Source: Mariprofundus sp. KV
Lineage (GTDB): Bacteria; Pseudomonadota; Zetaproteobacteria; Mariprofundales; Mariprofundaceae
DNA: 64,000 nt
Reading direction: 5' to 3'
Assembly: GCF_013387475.1 (NCBI RefSeq)
Contig: NZ_VWNB01000004.1
Location: forward strand, 62,001 to 126,000
Positions within the stretch are counted from its first letter, which is position 1; every line of letters starts with the position of its first letter. A program made the position numbers and the translations under genes. Positions 1 through 52,733 of the stretch are shown piece after piece. The notes below the pieces were generated by a model that was not told the DNA's origin, searched no databases, and saw nothing but the letters and a program-made list of their open reading frames with translations.

Positions 1-239
1 AGGTGAAAAGCAGATTGTTCGAACCGTTTGTCAGTGGCCGCTCCCGTGGCGTTGGTCTGGGGCTGGCGACGGTTCAGCAGGTGTGCCGGGCCAATAGCTG
101 GTTGATTGATGTAATGAGCAGCGACGGGATGACCTGTTTTAACGTCACCTGTTTAAGCAGTGATTTTATTGTGCCAGAGCGTGACTCCGGAGATGGTGAA
201 GGTCAGAAACAGATAAGCGTGGAGGAAACTGATGGCTGA
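1..239 (+). CDS. pilS: Sensor histidine kinase, C-terminal fragment (PilS-like)
   Basis: Only the last 78 or so residues are present; the gene starts before the window. They show the end of a HATPase_c domain: an EPF motif followed by a GLGLA glycine box, the ATP-lid region of histidine kinases. The usual TTK/G1 region is shortened (SGRSRGVGLGL). The stop overlaps the start of the pilR-like regulator by 8 bp, so the two are co-translated partners. The family role is autophosphorylation and phosphotransfer to the regulator. The name PilS rests on the PilR-type neighbour and on pilD downstream, not on this fragment itself. Confidence 0.7.
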   Translation, partial: VKSRLFEPFVSGRSRGVGLGLATVQQVCRANSWLIDVMSSDGMTCFNVTCLSSDFIVPERDSGDGEGQKQISVEETDG

Positions 240-1596
240 TATTTTGTTGGTTGAAGATGAAGCCAACGCCAGGCAGATCCTTACGCTGGGGTTGAGCCTT
301 CAGGGTCATCAGGTGAGCGGCTGTGGTTCTGTGGAAGAGGCGCAGAGGCTGATGCATAGTCAGGTGTTTGATGTGGTGTTGACTGACCTGCGCATGGATG
401 GGCGTGATGCTGGCCTTGAGGTAATTCGTATGGGGCGAGAGCTGCAGCCGGATGCCCGTATACTGCTGCTTACCGCTTATGCCAGTGCCGATACAGCTGT
501 AGCGGCTATGAAAGAGGGAGCCTTCGACTATCTGACCAAGCCGGTTTCGGCGGAGGAGCTGGCAGCGGCTGTAGAGAGGGCGCTGGCTGATAGTGCCGAA
601 GCAGCGCCTGTTGAACAGAAGAGTGAGGTTGCCAACGGCAAACATGAGATGCTTATCGGGGTCTCTGAGGCGATGAAGCGGGTGCGCTCCAGACTTGGAC
701 GGGCGGCACTATCGGATTTTACAGTGTTGATCAGTGGTGAGTCGGGAACCGGCAAGGAGCTTGCCGCAAGGTATGTGCATGCTTCATCAACACGAGCCCA
801 TGAAGCGTTTGTTCCTGTGCATTGCGGAGCTATTCCTGACGGACTGTTTGAGTCGGAGCTGTTCGGCCACCGCAAAGGTGCATTTACCGGTGCCGATTAT
901 GATCGCAATGGACTTATTGAGGCGGCCAATGGTGGCACGCTCTTTCTCGATGAGGTGGGTGAGATGCCATTGGCAGTGCAGGTGAAGCTGCTGCGTGTGC
1001 TGCAGGAGCGTTCTGTGCGCCGCGTTGGTGATGATCATGAGCACGCCGTTGATCTGCGCATTATTGCGGCTACCAATCGCGATCTTGAGGCTGAGGTGCG
1101 CAAGGGTGATTTTAGAGAGGATCTCTTTTTCCGGCTCAATGTGGTGCCGGTGCATATGCCGCCGCTGCGTCAGCGCAGCGAGGATATTCCCGAACTTGCA
1201 AAAGCGATTGTCCGGCAGTGGAGCGGGGGGCGCTCCAGACTGAGTGAAAGCTGCCTGAGCCGACTCTGTGAGCTCCCCTTTATGGGCAATGTGCGCGAGC
1301 TGGAGAACCTGTTGCAGCGCATGCTCGCACTCTCTGAAAGTGGTGATCTGGATGCTGCCCTGCTTAATGAACTCTATGCCGTTAAACAGCTTGAAGCCGA
1401 GGTTTCACTGTCGCGCCTACAGGAGCAGAAGATCGATCTCGATAGCTGGCTGGAGACGATGGAGCGGCAGCTGATAGAAGAGGCTGTGAGCAAAACCGGC
1501 GGTAATATTACCCGCGCAGCAGAGGAGCTTGGTATCAGCTTCCGCTCGATGCGCTACCGATTGAAAAAACTTGGTCTATCCGGAGCCGAAGAGTGA
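232..1596 (+). CDS. pilR: Sigma-54-dependent response regulator, PilR-type
   Basis: A 454-residue NtrC-family activator. A receiver domain spans about residues 1-120, with acidic pocket E8/D9 and phospho-acceptor D52 in TDLRM. A sigma-54 AAA+ domain (about 140-365) has Walker A GESGTGKE, the GAFTGA loop that contacts sigma-54 and a FLDEVGEM Walker B. A Fis-type helix-turn-helix lies at the C-terminus. The last helix reads [12 protein letters not shown], which I recall as characteristic of PilR, the activator of pilin genes. The gene overlaps the kinase upstream by 8 bp and pilD downstream by 4 bp (GTGA). A good sigma-54 promoter before pilM in this window is a possible target. Confidence 0.88.
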
Positions 1597-45776: not shown

Positions 45777-46448
45777 ATGAAGAACAGTGTATTGGTTATT
45801 TTCTTTGCAGCGCTGCTGACGTTTGCGTTCAGTAGTGAGACGGGAACATTTAGTATAGGTGTTTCATCTGCAGATGCGAAGTCGGACAGCAGCTCCAAGT
45901 CAGACAGCAAGTCCAAGTCAGACAGCAAGTCCAAGTCAGACAGCAAGTCCAAGTCAGACAGCAAGTCCAAGTCAGACAGCAAGTCCAAGTCAGACAGCAA
46001 GTCCAAGTCGGACAGCAAGTCCAAGTCGGACAGCAAGTCCAAGTCGGACAGCAAGTCCAAGTCAGACAGCAAGTCCAAGTCGGACAGCAAGTCCAAGTCG
46101 GACAGCAAGTCCAAGTCGGACAGCAAGTCCAAGTCGGACAGCAAGTCCAAGTCGGACAGCAGCTCTAAAGATAAAGAGAAAAAAGTGACTATCTGTCATT
46201 TCCCTCCGGGAAATCCTGAAAACATGCAGACACTCTCTGTTGGAGAGTCTGCTGTTGCAGCTCATCTCTCTGAGCATGGTGATTACCTGGGTGAATGTGT
46301 TGATCCTGATGCCGGAGGTGCTCCGAGTTGTGATTGTCCTCCAGGCGTAGCTGCATGTGTCTGTGCTGATGGTACACCCGGAAACGTTGGTGGAGCAGCA
46401 GCTTCTCCATCATCCTCATCATCACATCGCGAGGTTATGGGCCAGTAA
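45777..46448 (+). CDS. Secreted Ser/Lys/Asp repeat protein 2 with C-H/HGD module
   Basis: 223 residues; family not recognised. Signal peptide about 1-34 (ending SADA). Residues about 35-130 are a run of SKSDSK units from 18-bp tandem repeats. Then KVTICHFPPGNPENMQTLSV and AHLSEHGDYLGEC (about 140-177), a CDCPPG...CVCADG cysteine cluster, a Ser-rich tail and a final HREVMGQ. Paralogue of the genes before and after but with a different repeat. RBS GAGGAGAAGG is very strong, implying high expression. It has its own terminator. Confidence 0.8.
   Translation: MKNSVLVIFFAALLTFAFSSETGTFSIGVSSADAKSDSSSKSDSKSKSDSKSKSDSKSKSDSKSKSDSKSKSDSKSKSDSKSKSDSKSKSDSKSKSDSKSKSDSKSKSDSKSKSDSKSKSDSKSKSDSSSKDKEKKVTICHFPPGNPENMQTLSVGESAVAAHLSEHGDYLGECVDPDAGGAPSCDCPPGVAACVCADGTPGNVGGAAASPSSSSSHREVMGQ
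45894..46163 (+). repeat. 18-bp tandem repeats coding SKSDSK (14 perfect units plus variant end)
   Basis: Unit TCCAAGTCRGACAGCAAG. The R position runs A in units 1-6, G in 7-9, A in 10, G in 11-14; a fifteenth unit diverges at its last codon (AGC for AAG). A degenerate unit precedes at 45876. Confidence 0.95.
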
Positions 46449-46524: not shown

Positions 46525-46860
46525 ATGAAACGTAATCTGTTGGTGGCTATTTTTTCAGGCATGTTGATGTTTGCTTTTGGTGCTCAGGCAGGTGTTTTTT
46601 CTGATGATGTGTCGGCTGCATATGCGAAGAAAGAGAAATCAGGAGATAAAGATAGTAAATCTTCTGAAGATAACAAAGTGACACTGTGCCATGCACCTCC
46701 GGGTAATCCGGAAAATCTGCAGACGCTCTCTGTTGCTGAGGGGGCTGTTGGGGCTCACCTTGCCCATGGAGATCTTCTGGGAGCTTGTCCTGTCGTGGAA
46801 CCGCCTGATAGTGTGAAACCTGCAAAGGTTAATTCGCAGCGAAGTGTTTATGGGCAGTAG
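46525..46860 (+). CDS. Secreted protein 3 with C-H/HGD module, no long repeat
   Basis: 111 residues; family not recognised. Signal peptide about 1-33 (ending AAYA). A short Lys/Asp/Ser linker (KEKSGDKDSKSSED) replaces the repeats. Then KVTLCHAPPGNPENLQTLSV and AHLAHGDLLGAC (about 51-89) and a tail ending RSVYGQ, like the REVMGQ of protein 2. The second cysteine cluster is absent. It appears to be the reduced form of the same protein. No promoter space: it would be transcribed by read-through of the terminator 15 bp upstream. Confidence 0.75.
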   Translation: MKRNLLVAIFSGMLMFAFGAQAGVFSDDVSAAYAKKEKSGDKDSKSSEDNKVTLCHAPPGNPENLQTLSVAEGAVGAHLAHGDLLGACPVVEPPDSVKPAKVNSQRSVYGQ

Positions 46861-46878
46861 TGTTTAAATCATGATGCG

Positions 46879-46908
46879 AATGGCGCCTGATGGATGGGCG
46901 CCATTTTT
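46879..46908 (+). terminator. Rho-independent terminator after secreted protein 3
   Basis: Perfect arms AATGGCGCC and GGCGCCATT, loop of 9, then a short T-run. Confidence 0.85.
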
Positions 46909-46960
46909 GTAAGATGACTTTTTACTGGTATGGTATTCTGAACTGATGAAGGAGATGTTG

Positions 46961-47791
46961 ATGGCAAGTGAATCAGGCCAACTGGTGTTGAATACAGATC
47001 GTTTAAGCTGGCATGTTCTGGTTTTTCTTGTTGCTATTGAATTGCTGCTAGTGTTGCTCGATATCGTAATTAATTACGCCGAAGTGATTGAATATACCTC
47101 GATTCACCGGATTTTTAACATTGCCCGTGAAGATGGTCTGGCTGGCTGGTTTATGGCCTCGCAAACGCTGGTGGCGGCACTGGTGTTGTGGTTTCTCTAC
47201 TGGCTTAGTCGCACTCATGATGGTGCTACGGCCCTTCAGCGCAGGGGCTGGCTGGTGTTGGCGCTGTTTTTTACCTATATGTCAGCAGATGATGGGGCAC
47301 TGATTCATGAGCGACTGGGCACCATGTTTGAAGAGATCGGTGCTGAAGCAGGTAAAAGCGGTGATGTTGGTCTGCTCTCACAGTGGCTGGATATGTTTCC
47401 CAGTTATGAGTGGCAGTTTTTACTACCGTTTTTTGCGGCTGTCGGGCTGTATATGCTCCACTTTCTCTGGAGAGTCCTTGGGGTGGGGCGGCCACTGTTG
47501 ATGGTGTTGGCTGCATTCTCCTGTCTTGCCCTGGCAGTTGTGCTCGATTTTATAGAGGGCGTGCCAAAAGAGCATGCGCTAAACCTCTATAGCTGGATCA
47601 AGCAGGTCTGGTTACTCGAGGATTATACGGTTGATCATTTTGCCAAATCTCTGGAGGAGTTTCTTGAGATGCTTGGTATCAGTCTGTTTCTATCGGTTTT
47701 TGTAGCTCAGGCCGGTCGTGCCCATAATGATTCACTTGTGTTGCAGTTGGCCTCTTCGGATCAATTGGATAGGGTTAAACGGGCGAATTGA
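46961..47791 (+). CDS. Uncharacterised polytopic membrane protein with conserved acidic/His motifs
   Basis: About 276 residues from the ATG at 46961, 6 bp after AAGGAG; ATGs at 46946 and 46955 are in frame. Six or so transmembrane helices. Charged residues sit inside or at helix ends: SADDGALIHERLG, VLDFIEG and SLEEFLEMLG. That spaced Asp/Asp/His/Glu set suggests metal binding or catalysis in the membrane, reminiscent of lipid hydrolases, but I cannot assign a family. Lies between the secreted repeat genes and pilM. Confidence 0.7.
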   Translation: MASESGQLVLNTDRLSWHVLVFLVAIELLLVLLDIVINYAEVIEYTSIHRIFNIAREDGLAGWFMASQTLVAALVLWFLYWLSRTHDGATALQRRGWLVLALFFTYMSADDGALIHERLGTMFEEIGAEAGKSGDVGLLSQWLDMFPSYEWQFLLPFFAAVGLYMLHFLWRVLGVGRPLLMVLAAFSCLALAVVLDFIEGVPKEHALNLYSWIKQVWLLEDYTVDHFAKSLEEFLEMLGISLFLSVFVAQAGRAHNDSLVLQLASSDQLDRVKRAN

Positions 47792-47838
47792 TGTATCTGG
47801 CATCCCAGGGGCTGAAAGTACCTTAAAAGCTGACGTGG

Positions 47839-47854
47839 TGGCGTGATACTTGCT
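47839..47854 (+). promoter_or_regulatory. Sigma-54 (-24/-12) promoter before pilMNOQ
   Basis: TGGCGTGATACTTGCT: GG and GC separated by 10 bp, 13 of the 16 consensus-length bases fit TGGCACGN4TTGCW with only AC replaced by GT. Predicted start near 47865, about 105 bp before pilM. Confidence 0.55.
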
Positions 47855-47871
47855 ATGATTTGAGAGTGTTG

Positions 47872-47918
47872 AGCCAGCTCACTTTGCCGTGAACTGGCTT
47901 GACTTTATTGCTTATAAT
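47872..47918 (+). promoter_or_regulatory. Stem-loop and possible sigma-70 -10 in pilM leader
   Basis: Stem AGCCAG-c-TCAC / GTGA-a-CTGGCT around TTTGCC (47872-47899), then TATAAT at 47913-47918 with a weak TGAACT -35 at 17 bp inside the stem. Confidence 0.4.
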
Positions 47919-47969
47919 AAGGTACTTTGCACGAGTATGTGCCAGTAAAGCATAAGCTATGGAGGGTAA

Positions 47970-49052
47970 GTGTCCTTTTTTTCGAGCAGATCTGAAGGGA
48001 TCATGGGTGTGGATATCAGCTCGACCGGAATCAAACTGGTTGAGTTGTCGCGTTCCCGCTCTGGTTATGAGTTGGTCTCCCTGGCAACGATTCCTCTGCC
48101 TCGCGATGCGATCGTTGAGAATACAATCATTGACTCATCTGCTGTTACGCAGGCGTTGATTGAGGCGGTCAATGCTGCCAAAACATCCACTAAAAATGTC
48201 GCTTTGGCGGTCTCTGGTAACGCTGTAATTATCAAAACCATTACTATTCCGACAGTTAGTGAGTTCGAGCTTGAGGCGCAGATTCAGTATGAAGCCGACC
48301 AACATGTCCCTTATGATATCGATGATGTGTTTCTCGACTTTTTCATTCAGGGCATGACGGCCGATGATCCGGAGCATATGGATGTGGTGCTGGCCGCCTG
48401 TAAACGCGAAGTTGTCGAAGATTACCAGATGGTGCTTGCTGAGGCAGGCTTAACAGCAAAGTGTGTTGATTGTGCTGTGTTTGCGCTGGAAAATGGTGCT
48501 GAAGTCACAGAGCAACATAACCTTCCCCATGGTGGAGAGCAGTTATTGGCTGATGAGGATGCAGATGTTCATGCGCTGATTAATATCGGTGCGAATATGA
48601 TGAATATCAATGTGTTGATTAATGGTCAGATGGCATTTGTGCGCGATCAGTTTTATGGTGGTCAAAACCTGACTGAAGAGATTCAGAAAGAGCATGACAT
48701 CAGTTATCAGGCAGCCGAACAGTTAAAAACAGATGATTTTGACAGCATCCATCCGGAGGCTCTGGAGCGTTTTTACATGGGTTTAACCTCTGAGTTGGTG
48801 CGTTCACTCGATTTCTATTCTGCAAGTCGGGCTGAATTCCCTGTGCGTAAGCTTCTGCTCTCCGGTGGCTGTGCTCTGATCCCCAATATTGCGACCGAAC
48901 TTGAGCAGCGACTGGGTATTGATACAGCTATTCTCAATCCATTTGAGAACATTAAAATTCCAGCGAAAAAGTTTGATGAACAGCATATCAGGCGAATTGG
49001 CCCTATGTTGATGATACCCATTGGGCTTGCGATGCGGAGTTTTGATTCATGA
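47970..49052 (+). CDS. pilM: Type IV pilus assembly ATPase-like protein PilM
   Basis: 360 residues, GTG start after GGAGGG. Actin-like fold: N-terminal GVDISSTGIKLVEL phosphate loop, then middle INIGANMMNI and C-terminal LLLSGGCALIPN motifs of PilM. It is a cytoplasmic ring component that binds the N-terminus of PilN. Overlaps pilN by 4 bp. First of pilM-N-O-Q; promoter elements of both sigma types lie upstream. Confidence 0.95.
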   Translation: MSFFSSRSEGIMGVDISSTGIKLVELSRSRSGYELVSLATIPLPRDAIVENTIIDSSAVTQALIEAVNAAKTSTKNVALAVSGNAVIIKTITIPTVSEFELEAQIQYEADQHVPYDIDDVFLDFFIQGMTADDPEHMDVVLAACKREVVEDYQMVLAEAGLTAKCVDCAVFALENGAEVTEQHNLPHGGEQLLADEDADVHALINIGANMMNINVLINGQMAFVRDQFYGGQNLTEEIQKEHDISYQAAEQLKTDDFDSIHPEALERFYMGLTSELVRSLDFYSASRAEFPVRKLLLSGGCALIPNIATELEQRLGIDTAILNPFENIKIPAKKFDEQHIRRIGPMLMIPIGLAMRSFDS

Positions 49053-49639
49053 TTCGCATTAATCTGATTCCCTACCGCGATGCCAGACGTCAGCAGCAGA
49101 TTGTGCAGCATCTTAGCATCTTCTTTGCTGTGGTTATTGTTGCTGTATTGCTTGCTATGGGCGCCCATACGACTGCTTCGATGCAGCTCTCCGACCTCAA
49201 AGAGGAGACGCTTCGTGTGCAGCAGCAGAATGCTGAACTGAAGAAGAAGATCGGTAAAATTGAAAATTTGGCTAACCTGCGCGGTGACGTGGAACGCAAG
49301 CTGGATATTGTCGACAGGCTGCAGGAGGGGCGTTTCCGCTCACTGAAAACACTGCATGAGATTGCTCAGGTGATTCCAGATAATGTCTGGATCAAGTCTG
49401 TAAAAGATAAAGGCGATACCATTGAGCTCTCGGGCCTTGGTGAAAGCAATAAGGCGGTTGCCAATTTCATGCGCAAACTGGATCACTCTCCGCTGTTTTC
49501 AAATATCCAGTTGCTGGTCATCAGTCGCATCACAGTTGATGGCTTGCCGGTTAGAAAGTTTAGTCTGAACATGGATCGCATTGATGCGTTGCCGGATCGC
49601 AAGAAAGATAGTGCTGCGGCTAAAGGGGGTAAGGGCTGA
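49049..49639 (+). CDS. pilN: Type IV pilus assembly protein PilN
   Basis: 196 residues. The N-terminal RINLIPYRDARR is the PilM-binding motif; one transmembrane helix at about 21-41, coiled coil about 48-75, and a ferredoxin-like periplasmic domain (WIKSVKDKGDTIELSGLG). Forms the inner-membrane alignment complex with PilO. TGATG junction with pilO. Confidence 0.93.
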   Translation: MIRINLIPYRDARRQQQIVQHLSIFFAVVIVAVLLAMGAHTTASMQLSDLKEETLRVQQQNAELKKKIGKIENLANLRGDVERKLDIVDRLQEGRFRSLKTLHEIAQVIPDNVWIKSVKDKGDTIELSGLGESNKAVANFMRKLDHSPLFSNIQLLVISRITVDGLPVRKFSLNMDRIDALPDRKKDSAAAKGGKG

Positions 49640-50253
49640 TGTTTGATTCCCTGAAAGAGTCCCTCTACGAAGGACTTCGCCCTATTCTGCCGTTGCCGGC
49701 ATGGCAGAAATTGTTGACGCTGGTTGTTACCTTTGTGGTGATCACCGGAGCGTATGTTTATCTGGGCTGGATGCCCCTGCAGGAGGAGATTACCCAGCAG
49801 GAGTCTCAGGTTGAGATGCAGAAAATGCGGCTGGTCAAAAACCAGCGTCTGGCGCATGACCTGCCACGCAAACAGAAAGAGTATGCCAAGCTTGAGAAGC
49901 AGTTGAAGGTAGCGCTGAATATGCTTCCCAAGAAATCACAGATTCCGGATCTCTTGGAAAACGTTTCGTGGGCAGGGAAGGACTCCGGCCTTGAATTCAA
50001 GCAGTTCAAGCCGGGTCGGGAAGTTGCCAGACAGATCTATGCCGAGGTGCCTGTTGATCTGGATGTGACAGGAAGTTTCCGTCAGTTGCTGACCTTTTTA
50101 AAAAGGGTGGGCGAGATGCCACGTATTGTGGATATCAAGGGACTTACCCTGTCAGAGGCGAAAGATAATGAACTGAATGTAAAAGGGCAGGCGGTCACCT
50201 ACAGGTTTGTGGAAGAGAAACCCGCCAGCGCGAGTAAGGGGCGGCGCAAATAA
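49639..50253 (+). CDS. pilO: Type IV pilus assembly protein PilO
   Basis: 204 residues. Transmembrane helix about 25-44, coiled coil about 50-95, and a periplasmic domain with SWAGKDSGLEFKQFKPG and a TYRF end strand. Partner of PilN. Ends on the TAATG where pilQ may begin. In most pil operons pilP comes next; here it does not. Confidence 0.92.
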   Translation: MFDSLKESLYEGLRPILPLPAWQKLLTLVVTFVVITGAYVYLGWMPLQEEITQQESQVEMQKMRLVKNQRLAHDLPRKQKEYAKLEKQLKVALNMLPKKSQIPDLLENVSWAGKDSGLEFKQFKPGREVARQIYAEVPVDLDVTGSFRQLLTFLKRVGEMPRIVDIKGLTLSEAKDNELNVKGQAVTYRFVEEKPASASKGRRK

Positions 50254-52733
50254 TGCGTATTTTGGCCGGGAGACAGGTTATGAGGTATATCATGAAGCAT
50301 TGGGCTGAAAGCAGGCTGTTACAGCAGCCAGGGAAAATAGTTGCTCTGGTGGCTTTTGCGTTGCTGCTCTGTGTGAATGGTTCTCAAATTGAAGCGGCGA
50401 CCATCAACGGTTTGCATCTGCTTTCAGATCGAGATGGACAGCGTCTGAATATCGCGATGGATGAAGCTGCAGAGTATCAGGTGTTTAATCTTGAAGGCCC
50501 AAGGCGTCTTGTCTTGAACTTCCCCAATGCCTCTATGGCAAAAGATGTCTCTGAAGTTGCAGGTGATGGTGCGATCACGACTGTTGTTCCTCAGCAAGAC
50601 AGCAGCGGTGTACGTGTTGAAATCGGGCTTGCCAAAGGTGCTAAATATGAGATTGCTGAGAAAGGCAATGATCTACTGGTTACTTTTACTTCGGAAGTGA
50701 AAGCTGCTGCCAGGAGTGAAGGGGCTCTGTTGCAGGATATCTCTGTTAATGACAGAGGCAGTGTGACCGAACTGGTGCTACGTGGTGAACGTATGGATTC
50801 CAATCACAATGCACTGGTGACCAACGATGGTAAAACGCTGGTTCTGGATTTCTGGGGCGGTAGTTCGAAGCTTCCTAAGGAGTATTACACCTATACAGCC
50901 CTTCGTCTGAATGATGTCACCATTGGCTCTGCAGAGGGGCGTTTGCGTCTGGTGCTCTCTTTAAGAACAGGGGCGGGTTCCAACCACCAGATTGATGCTG
51001 ATGCCAATAGTATGGTGATCCGTTTCGGTAATATCGAGCCGAAGAAGAGTGTTGTCGGCCTGACTGTTGATGCCGTTGATTTTCAACCTGATGACAGAAT
51101 TGCGCATCTGGTTGTTCGCACCAATGAAGCCAATCCCATTATTAATCTTCAGGAAGAGGATGGGAAAATCATTCTCGATCTTAAGAATGCAACACTGGCC
51201 TCAGGTCAAGAGCGTTCGCAGGATTTGAGCGCTTTCCCGGGGCCTGTGAAGCAGATCGACAGCTATGGCATGAACAAAGACGTTCGCATTGTAGCCCGCT
51301 TACGCCAGAAGGCAGTGGTATCCTCTTATCAGAGTGGCAATGTGCTTACTGTCACCCTGAAACCGCAGGATATGGTCGCTGTATCCGAGAGTGATGAGGC
51401 GGCCGTCAGGGATGAGAAGGTCTATTCCGGCCAGAAGGTAAGTTTCAGCTACAAGGATATCGATATCCGCAATGCGCTGCAGCTGATTGCCGAGATGAGC
51501 GATTTTAATATTATCATGTCTGATGATGTCTCTGGTGTACTCACCATGCGTCTGGTCGATGTTCCCTGGGATCAGGCACTGGATCTGATCCTGCAGGCTC
51601 GCGGCCTTGGAAAAGAGCAGAGCGGTAATGTCATTCGCATTGCACCACTGGATGTACTGAAGTCTGATTCCGATTCGAGAAAAGCTGCCAAGGCGAGTGC
51701 TGAAGAGGTAGCACCACTGGATACCGAGTTTATTACACTGGGCTACGCATCAGTCAATGATGTGAAGACTATTCTGCAGGGAGGCTCTGTTAAGACCGAG
51801 GTTACCGGTGGCGATGTAACCGATAAAGAGGCTACAACCAGCTCTTCCGGTAGTGGAGAGCTGAAGCTGCTCTCCAGTCGCGGCTCGATTCTGCTGGATG
51901 AGCGCAGCAACACGATGATCATCACTGATACACGCGAGCGGTTGAATAATATCAAGCGTCTGGTGGCTGTGATCGATAAGCCTACCCAACAGGTATTGAT
52001 CGAAGCGCGTATTGTTGAAGCAACCGATTCATTTGCTCGTGATCTCGGTATCAGGTGGGGCGGGCAATATAACACAACAGGTAAAGGAGCAACGCATACG
52101 GTAAACGGAACGGCTGTTGGCACTAACGTTGTGGATTTAGGTGCTCTTGTTCAGGCCGGTGCCGGTGGTGCAATCGGATACTCACTGGGCACATTGGGTG
52201 GGGCCTTGAATTTAAACCTTGAGCTCTCAGCTGCAGAGCAGGTAGGTGACATCAAGGTGGTCTCCAGTCCGCGTGTGTTTACCAGTAATCTACAGGAGGC
52301 GCTGATTGAACAGGATCGTCAGATCCCATTCCAGTCATCGACCTTTTCCGGTGGTGTCACGACCATTACCACAACATTGGTGAGTGCCAAGCTGGCTCTG
52401 AAGGTGACACCTCAGATCACCGCTGATAAACGCATTATCATGCAGCTGGTGGTGAATAAGGATACGCCTATCGATAATCCAATTACTGGTGGTGCACCAT
52501 CGATTGACAAGAAACAGGTGGTAACCAAGCTACTTGTAAAAAATGGAGAGACAGTGGTACTTGGTGGCATCTATTCACAGACTACCTCTGATACGGTGAA
52601 CGGTGTGCCAGGGTTGATGGATATTCCGCTCATTGGTCACTTCTTTAAACGCAAACAGAAAAGTGATAATCGTAATGAACTGCTGATCTTTATCACACCA
52701 ACGATCATTGGTGATGAAATATCGATTCAGTAA
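50253..52733 (+). CDS. pilQ: Type IV pilus secretin PilQ
   Basis: 826 residues from the TAATG ATG at 50253; an ATG at 50280 has a better Shine-Dalgarno (GGGAGACAGG). After the signal segment (to about AAT) come three AMIN-like beta domains (about 50-150, 165-265, 270-375), then STN/N0 (VSFSYKDIDIRNALQLIA), N1 (LGYASVNDVKTIL) and the secretin core with VLIEARIVEA, SSPRVFTSN, KDTPIDNP and the final IFITPTIIGDE. It is the outer-membrane gate for pili. E. coli-type PilQ has two AMIN domains, so three is unusual. A terminator follows. Confidence 0.94.
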   Translation: MRILAGRQVMRYIMKHWAESRLLQQPGKIVALVAFALLLCVNGSQIEAATINGLHLLSDRDGQRLNIAMDEAAEYQVFNLEGPRRLVLNFPNASMAKDVSEVAGDGAITTVVPQQDSSGVRVEIGLAKGAKYEIAEKGNDLLVTFTSEVKAAARSEGALLQDISVNDRGSVTELVLRGERMDSNHNALVTNDGKTLVLDFWGGSSKLPKEYYTYTALRLNDVTIGSAEGRLRLVLSLRTGAGSNHQIDADANSMVIRFGNIEPKKSVVGLTVDAVDFQPDDRIAHLVVRTNEANPIINLQEEDGKIILDLKNATLASGQERSQDLSAFPGPVKQIDSYGMNKDVRIVARLRQKAVVSSYQSGNVLTVTLKPQDMVAVSESDEAAVRDEKVYSGQKVSFSYKDIDIRNALQLIAEMSDFNIIMSDDVSGVLTMRLVDVPWDQALDLILQARGLGKEQSGNVIRIAPLDVLKSDSDSRKAAKASAEEVAPLDTEFITLGYASVNDVKTILQGGSVKTEVTGGDVTDKEATTSSSGSGELKLLSSRGSILLDERSNTMIITDTRERLNNIKRLVAVIDKPTQQVLIEARIVEATDSFARDLGIRWGGQYNTTGKGATHTVNGTAVGTNVVDLGALVQAGAGGAIGYSLGTLGGALNLNLELSAAEQVGDIKVVSSPRVFTSNLQEALIEQDRQIPFQSSTFSGGVTTITTTLVSAKLALKVTPQITADKRIIMQLVVNKDTPIDNPITGGAPSIDKKQVVTKLLVKNGETVVLGGIYSQTTSDTVNGVPGLMDIPLIGHFFKRKQKSDNRNELLIFITPTIIGDEISIQ

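Follow-up and report, generated by a model that had tools for sequence, protein, structure and literature searches.

A conserved predicted sigma-54 promoter upstream of the type IV pilus assembly operon pilMNOQ in Mariprofundus

Background

For type IV pili, the pilin gene is an established target of sigma-54, and the closest described systems are sigma-54 promoters controlled by PilSR or a similar pair, at G. sulfurreducens pilA, X. fastidiosa pilA1 and commensal Neisseria pilE. In the available text of the RpoN-regulon papers on G. sulfurreducens and X. fastidiosa, the targets are pilA and pilA1, and the word pilM does not occur (PMC2725144, PMC3224663). For the assembly genes, the nearest comparison is the pilMNOPQ operon of commensal Neisseria. 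According to the accessible sections of the Neisseria study, an RpoD-type start was mapped in Neisseria loci, mutation of rpoN, nps or npa did not alter the pilM transcript, and RpoN dependence was limited to pilE (PMC6528607). The titles and abstract openings that we surveyed mention no sigma-54 promoter at pilM. Tandem sigma-70/sigma-54 promoters are known from glnAp1/glnAp2 of E. coli, in which a single operon has both a housekeeping and a sigma-54 promoter.

Here we analysed a window of 64,000 nucleotides (G000:C23:62001-126000) within the 2.53-Mb genome of Mariprofundus sp. KV, which carries a predicted sigma-54 promoter in front of pilM. The locus resembles the pilin systems in having a -24/-12 promoter for type IV pili and PilS/PilR-type proteins in the genome, but the element precedes the assembly operon, a putative second promoter lies behind it, and the box found at pilA is missing. 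Compared with commensal Neisseria, the operon is the same apart from pilP, whereas Mariprofundus adds a conserved sigma-54 element upstream. The arrangement is like that of glnAp1/glnAp2, but the genes are others and no activator box was found at pilM. With a conserved sigma-54 promoter before the assembly genes, iron oxidisers could regulate how much of the machine is made separately from how much pilin.

Results and discussion

The pilMNOQ operon and its sigma-54 element

The pilM gene (47970-49052, + strand) has a GTG start and matches TIGR01175 at 288.3 bits (cut-off 133). It is preceded by a probable ribosome-binding site GGAGGG (47961-47966, +), and GGAGGG-like sequences are found in an alignment of 19 upstreams. 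On the same strand follow pilN (49049-49639; PF05137, 7.9e-21), pilO (49639-50253; PF04350, 3.1e-39) and the secretin gene pilQ (50253-52733; TIGR02515 at 457.3 bits with a cut-off of 284.35, PF00263 and AMIN). Because these four genes overlap, they most likely form a single operon. The usual position of pilP is between pilO and pilQ; at this locus, base 50253 is common to pilO and pilQ and there is no gene in between. Elsewhere in the window, 45777-46448 encodes a protein of 223 aa that contains a long SDSK repeat, and a smaller relative encoded at 46525-46860 resembles it in the signal peptide and in a CH-PPGNPEN stretch.

The element TGGCGTGATACTTGCT lies at 47839-47854 (+), with 115 bp from its end to the pilM GTG start at 47970. 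A preliminary description of this DNA had read it as a sigma-54 (-24/-12) promoter facing pilM, and this reading is supported: the GG-N10-GC spacing and the TGGC-N7-TTGCT form are exact, rpoN is present in the genome (PF04552, 1.1e-57), and the element is conserved across the genus. Transcription from it would start near 47865. We also agree that sigma-54 control of the assembly operon, rather than of the pilin gene, would be a variation.

Judged by the number of matches in the window alone, the element is no more than chance. TGGC-N7-TTGC occurs three times, compared with 5.66 expected from shuffles; the more permissive TGGCAC-N5-TTGCW, allowing three mismatches at most, gives 353 matches where shuffles give 380. 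Genome-wide, TGGC-N7-TTGCW is found 100 times and its reversed control 28 times, and 28 of those 100 matches fall outside likely genes under a simple codon model, although the pattern is too loose to prove single sites. We also took 30 distinct sigma-54 sites of pilA and flgB, leaving the pilM sites out, and derived a matrix from them. By this matrix, the pilM element ranks second among all window positions on both strands, the sole position scoring above it is without the GC, and shuffled windows contain 0.12 positions per strand that score as high.

The sigma-54 consensus is TGGCAC-N5-TTGCW. At position 5, the element in the window has G where the consensus has A; G or T is found there in all 17 pilM sites of the genus, while A is found in all 27 pilA and all 20 flgB sites. 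The spacer of the pilM sites has a consensus of its own, with A at position 8 (15 of 17) and T at position 9 (14 of 17). In sequence, the sites at pilM form a separate sub-class. Such a spacer would also suit a sigma-70 promoter, or a site of some other protein, that resembles a -24/-12 element, and a sigma-70-type match CTGACG-N18-TATGAT, preceded by TG, does overlap the element (47830-47859 in the window). However, we regard this explanation as very unlikely: the sigma-70-type scan gives one match of this kind compared with 0.7 in shuffles, TATGAT after TTGC is found only in G000 and G001 among the upstreams inspected for it while TGGC-N7-TTGC is kept in 17, and the element agrees with a matrix derived from other genes (pilA and flgB).

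Conservation of the element in the genus

PilM matches were found in 49 genomes, and the pilM upstreams of 38 of them (22 Mariprofundus and 16 others) were compared. Left out were G004, which is cut at a contig end, and G029, G040, G041, G043, G046, G049, G052, G054, G055 and G060. In named genomes, the PilM relatives comprise 15 Mariprofundus/Zetaproteobacteria records and one Geobacteraceae. In the 330 bp before pilM, TGGC-N7-TTGC is found in 17 of the 22 genus genomes (it is absent in G005, G008, G017, G018 and G021) and in none of the 16 others, compared with a mean of 0.136 and a largest value of 2 in 500 shuffles. Among 21 spacings (N0-N20), each one other than N7 occurs in 0-2 genomes, and on the reverse strand at most one genome has an element-like match upstream of pilM. 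Among cultivated members of the genus, M. micogutta and M. ferrooxydans PV-1 carry the element, which in PV-1 ends in TTGCC.

When 14 sequences (three near-copies dropped) were aligned in register on the element, information was high in TGGC and TTGCT, with some in the spacer, and conservation dropped to background immediately beyond the 16 bp. The gene upstream of pilM varies, with at least five unrelated C-termini among the genomes, so that one long inherited stretch does not account for the kept element. Because the footprint in the genus is specific to one spacing, and flanks and neighbour genes vary while the element stays, the sigma-54 promoter is well supported; the element can be taken as real on the strength of its conservation, and its function is a prediction. 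A chance match without function, which the match count in the window would favour, is barely credible in the face of the 17 of 22 genomes against the shuffled mean. It was rejected on the N7-specific conservation and the register alignment, though the window alone would leave room for it.

On a PilM tree (35 rows), five changes of element presence are needed, and on a PilR tree (28 rows), in which G033 is placed inside the genus, six are needed; the deep forks of both trees are weak. The five changes on the PilM tree fit a single gain at the base of the genus with losses in G008, G005, G021 and G017/G018. The element probably arose at the root of Mariprofundus, with a few lineages losing it later.

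A putative proximal sigma-70-like promoter

The preliminary description was right about the sigma-54 element in the promoter layout but overlooked a second, sigma-70-like promoter closer to pilM, TTGACT-N18-TACTTT at 47899-47928 (+), with TTGACT at 47899-47904 and TACTTT at 47923-47928. The pattern TTGAC-N17/18-TANN(T/C)T is found about 70 bp before the pilM start in 20 of the 22 genus genomes and in 9 of the 16 outside, compared with a mean of 0.07 and a largest value of 1 in 300 shuffles. Its -10 sequence TACTTT is weak, sharing three of six positions with E. coli TATAAT, and was missed by a strict sigma-70 scan. The proximal promoter is kept in G005, G008, G021 and G033, where the sigma-54 element is absent, which suggests that it is the older of the two. 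The pilMNOQ operon appears to have tandem promoters, sigma-54 distal and sigma-70-like proximal, and we infer that both fire.

The spacer of the proximal promoter (47905-47922, TTATTGCTTATAATAAGG) shows unusual conservation, and CTTAT-N-ATAAG is found in it in several species, which makes it a possible operator. A stem-loop lies at 47868-47903, directly before the proximal -35, in what would be the leader of the sigma-54 transcript. In the window sequence, the leader fold has a z-score of -2.19, and 5 of 200 shuffles fold equally well. No known leader RNA was matched in an Rfam search of 46800-49100 at gathering scores, and a terminator scan between the sigma-54 element and pilM listed none.

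PilR and the palindrome at pilA

The window contains a gene for a PilR-type sigma-54 activator at 232-1596 (+), with receiver, AAA+ and HTH_8 domains (PF00072, PF00158, PF02954). A histidine kinase gene lies just upstream (L084:45-1088) and a prepilin peptidase gene just downstream. These domains and neighbours fit the earlier placing of pilR at 0.2-1.6 kb, although among the best 25 of 111 matches no NCBIfam model reached its cut-off. The promoter at pilM had further been said to match this PilR in the same window. The presence of pilR within the same 64 kb is no evidence for such a match, because sigma-54 activators act on promoters genome-wide.

For comparison, a pilA set of 30 loci (L103-L132) was taken, of 55 genomes with a match. 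One locus (L131) was dropped because it had no start, and of the 29 that were read, two (L129, L130) are without a strict TGGC-N7-TTGC at pilA, so that 27 loci with a strict sigma-54 site were kept. For example, pilA of G000 (C22:137103-137546, - strand) has its sigma-54 site TGGCATCATGCTTGCG at -75 and the palindrome TGACATTTTTTGTCA centred 46 bp upstream of that site. In 22 of the 27 loci, the centre of a TGACA-N5-TGTCA match (at least 9 of 10) lies 46-48 bp before the sigma-54 site; in the remaining five, the palindrome lies at 69-70 (L105, L106) or at 152 (L114), or matches at 8 of 10 only (L109, L110). TGTC is a core of P. aeruginosa PilR sites. From its position and conservation, the palindrome at pilA is a probable PilR box, and it provides a concrete prediction across the class. 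In the whole genome, only pilA and C11:134090 have a perfect copy.

At pilM, the picture is different. The best match to the pilA-type box in the pilM upstream of the window scores 1.3 by matrix, compared with a null median of 1.9. The matrix search covered 29 of the 38 pilM upstreams, and seven exceed the shuffled 95% level (G002, G016, G019, G020, G005, G017 and G018). In the first five, what matches is the -35 TTGACA, located downstream of the element; four of these (G002, G016, G019, G020) reach a score of 12.5, above their null. G017 and G018 have no sigma-54 element. Half-sites point the same way. In the 150 bp before the sigma-54 site, TGTCA/TGACA is found twice in 17 pilM upstreams (4.6 in shuffles; none in the window), compared with 61 times in 27 pilA upstreams (7.9 in shuffles). 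The shorter words TGTC/GACA, also over 150 bp, are found 8 times at pilM (18.7 in shuffles) and 75 times at pilA (29.0 in shuffles). The hallmarks of P. aeruginosa-type PilR sites given in the accessible part of PMC6058289 are TGT-N11-AGA and GTCT. The former occurs 0 times in the 17 pilM upstreams (1.2 in shuffles), but only twice in the 27 pilA upstreams (2.3 in shuffles).

Furthermore, no conserved word that might mark an enhancer was seen near the pilM element in the register alignment (14 sequences), and the best dyads upstream of it occur in 5 of 13 sequences, compared with 3-4 in shuffles, none of them palindromic. Regulated sigma-54 promoters normally have an enhancer. Since enhancers may be distant or unconserved, the missing conserved enhancer does not refute the pilM sigma-54 promoter. 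What was rejected is a PilR box of the pilA type at pilM, which neither the matrix (29 upstreams) nor dyads nor half-sites revealed. The search for PilR sites upstream of the element that the preliminary description had proposed gave no pilA-type box at the pilM of the window, and its match with PilR is not supported, with the pilA-type box absent and half-sites fewer than in shuffles.

That PilR drives the pilM sigma-54 promoter, bringing pilin and assembly machine under one regulator, seems unlikely to us. Close relatives of the PilR-type protein are indeed found in 16 of the 17 element-bearing genomes (the exception, G009, is 70% complete), and a G. sulfurreducens survey, as cited in the accessible text of PMC6058289, predicted PilR sites at 54 loci, many of them before pilus and flagellar genes, which may include assembly genes. 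However, PilR relatives are found equally in element-free genomes, for instance G005, G008, G017, G018 and G021, pilM has no counterpart of the pilA palindrome, which is perfect at only two places in the genome, and pilM of commensal Neisseria is independent of RpoN in the accessible sections of that study (PMC6528607). With the probable PilR mark of pilA missing at pilM, expression of pilin and of the pilus machine may be raised in response to different signals.

Candidate activators and the flagellar link

Considering the element with its conservation and spacing, the proximal promoter and the missing pilA-type box, all of which can be read from the DNA, we think it likely that pilMNOQ has tandem promoters, a sigma-70-like one for baseline and a sigma-54 one for extra expression, whose activator is probably not PilR acting via a pilA-type box. 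The proximal promoter would maintain a baseline supply of pilus alignment and secretin parts, and the sigma-54 promoter, about 60 bp farther upstream, would give extra expression when an enhancer-binding protein remodels sigma-54 RNA polymerase. The activator at pilM might be another of the six strong sigma-54 activators of this genome, or PilR binding at a site that is distant or not conserved.

The genome has eight PF00158 matches, including these six at E below 1e-60. By best NCBIfam match, none above cut-off, the five beside the PilR-type protein are NtrC-like, NtrX-like, PEP-CTERM-type and two in the flagellar cluster, P0001 (FlbD/FleQ-like) and P0002 (AtoC-like). Among 23 genomes searched, all 17 with the element have both P0001 and P0002; neither was found in G017, G018 or G033, all without the element. 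A third activator that we examined is present in 22 of the 23. In addition, flgB, which adjoins P0001, has a sigma-54 site of its own, TGGCATG-N4-TTGCT, in 20 of 20 loci (L232-L251); in G000, this site (C5:37166-37181, - strand) is made up of the final codons of the preceding flagellar activator gene. By co-occurrence, the flagellar enhancer-binding proteins are the best activator candidates for pilM, on thin evidence.

We consider it possible, though doubtful, that one of these two proteins drives the pilM sigma-54 promoter. Both are present without the element in G005, G008 and G021, and their absences within the genus amount to about one event, with G018 78% complete. Moreover, in most genomes no word is common to flgB and pilM. 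In 4 of 17 genomes, three being close relatives, shared words score above all 30 shuffles (one 11-of-12 word in G006, G009 and G011, another in G007), and in the other 13 genomes, 3 to 30 of the 30 shuffles reach the same score. The A at position 5 of the flgB sites, which is never found in pilM sites, is a further point against a flagellar activator. A broader proposal, which we hold to be rather improbable, is that Mariprofundus regulates pilin and pilus machine independently: PilR would drive pilA via the palindrome, and the sigma-54 promoter of pilMNOQ, acquired at the root of the genus, would respond to a different activator. This would most likely be a flagellar one, making construction of the secretin machine part of a swimming-to-surface programme.

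Outside the pilus and flagellar loci, TGGCCTTATACTTGCT at G000:C24:137288-137303 (+; L194:789) lies outside likely genes, and a GC-rich hairpin with a T run comes after it within about 110 bp. It is a candidate for a sigma-54 small RNA, or the hairpin may simply be the terminator of the convergent gene.
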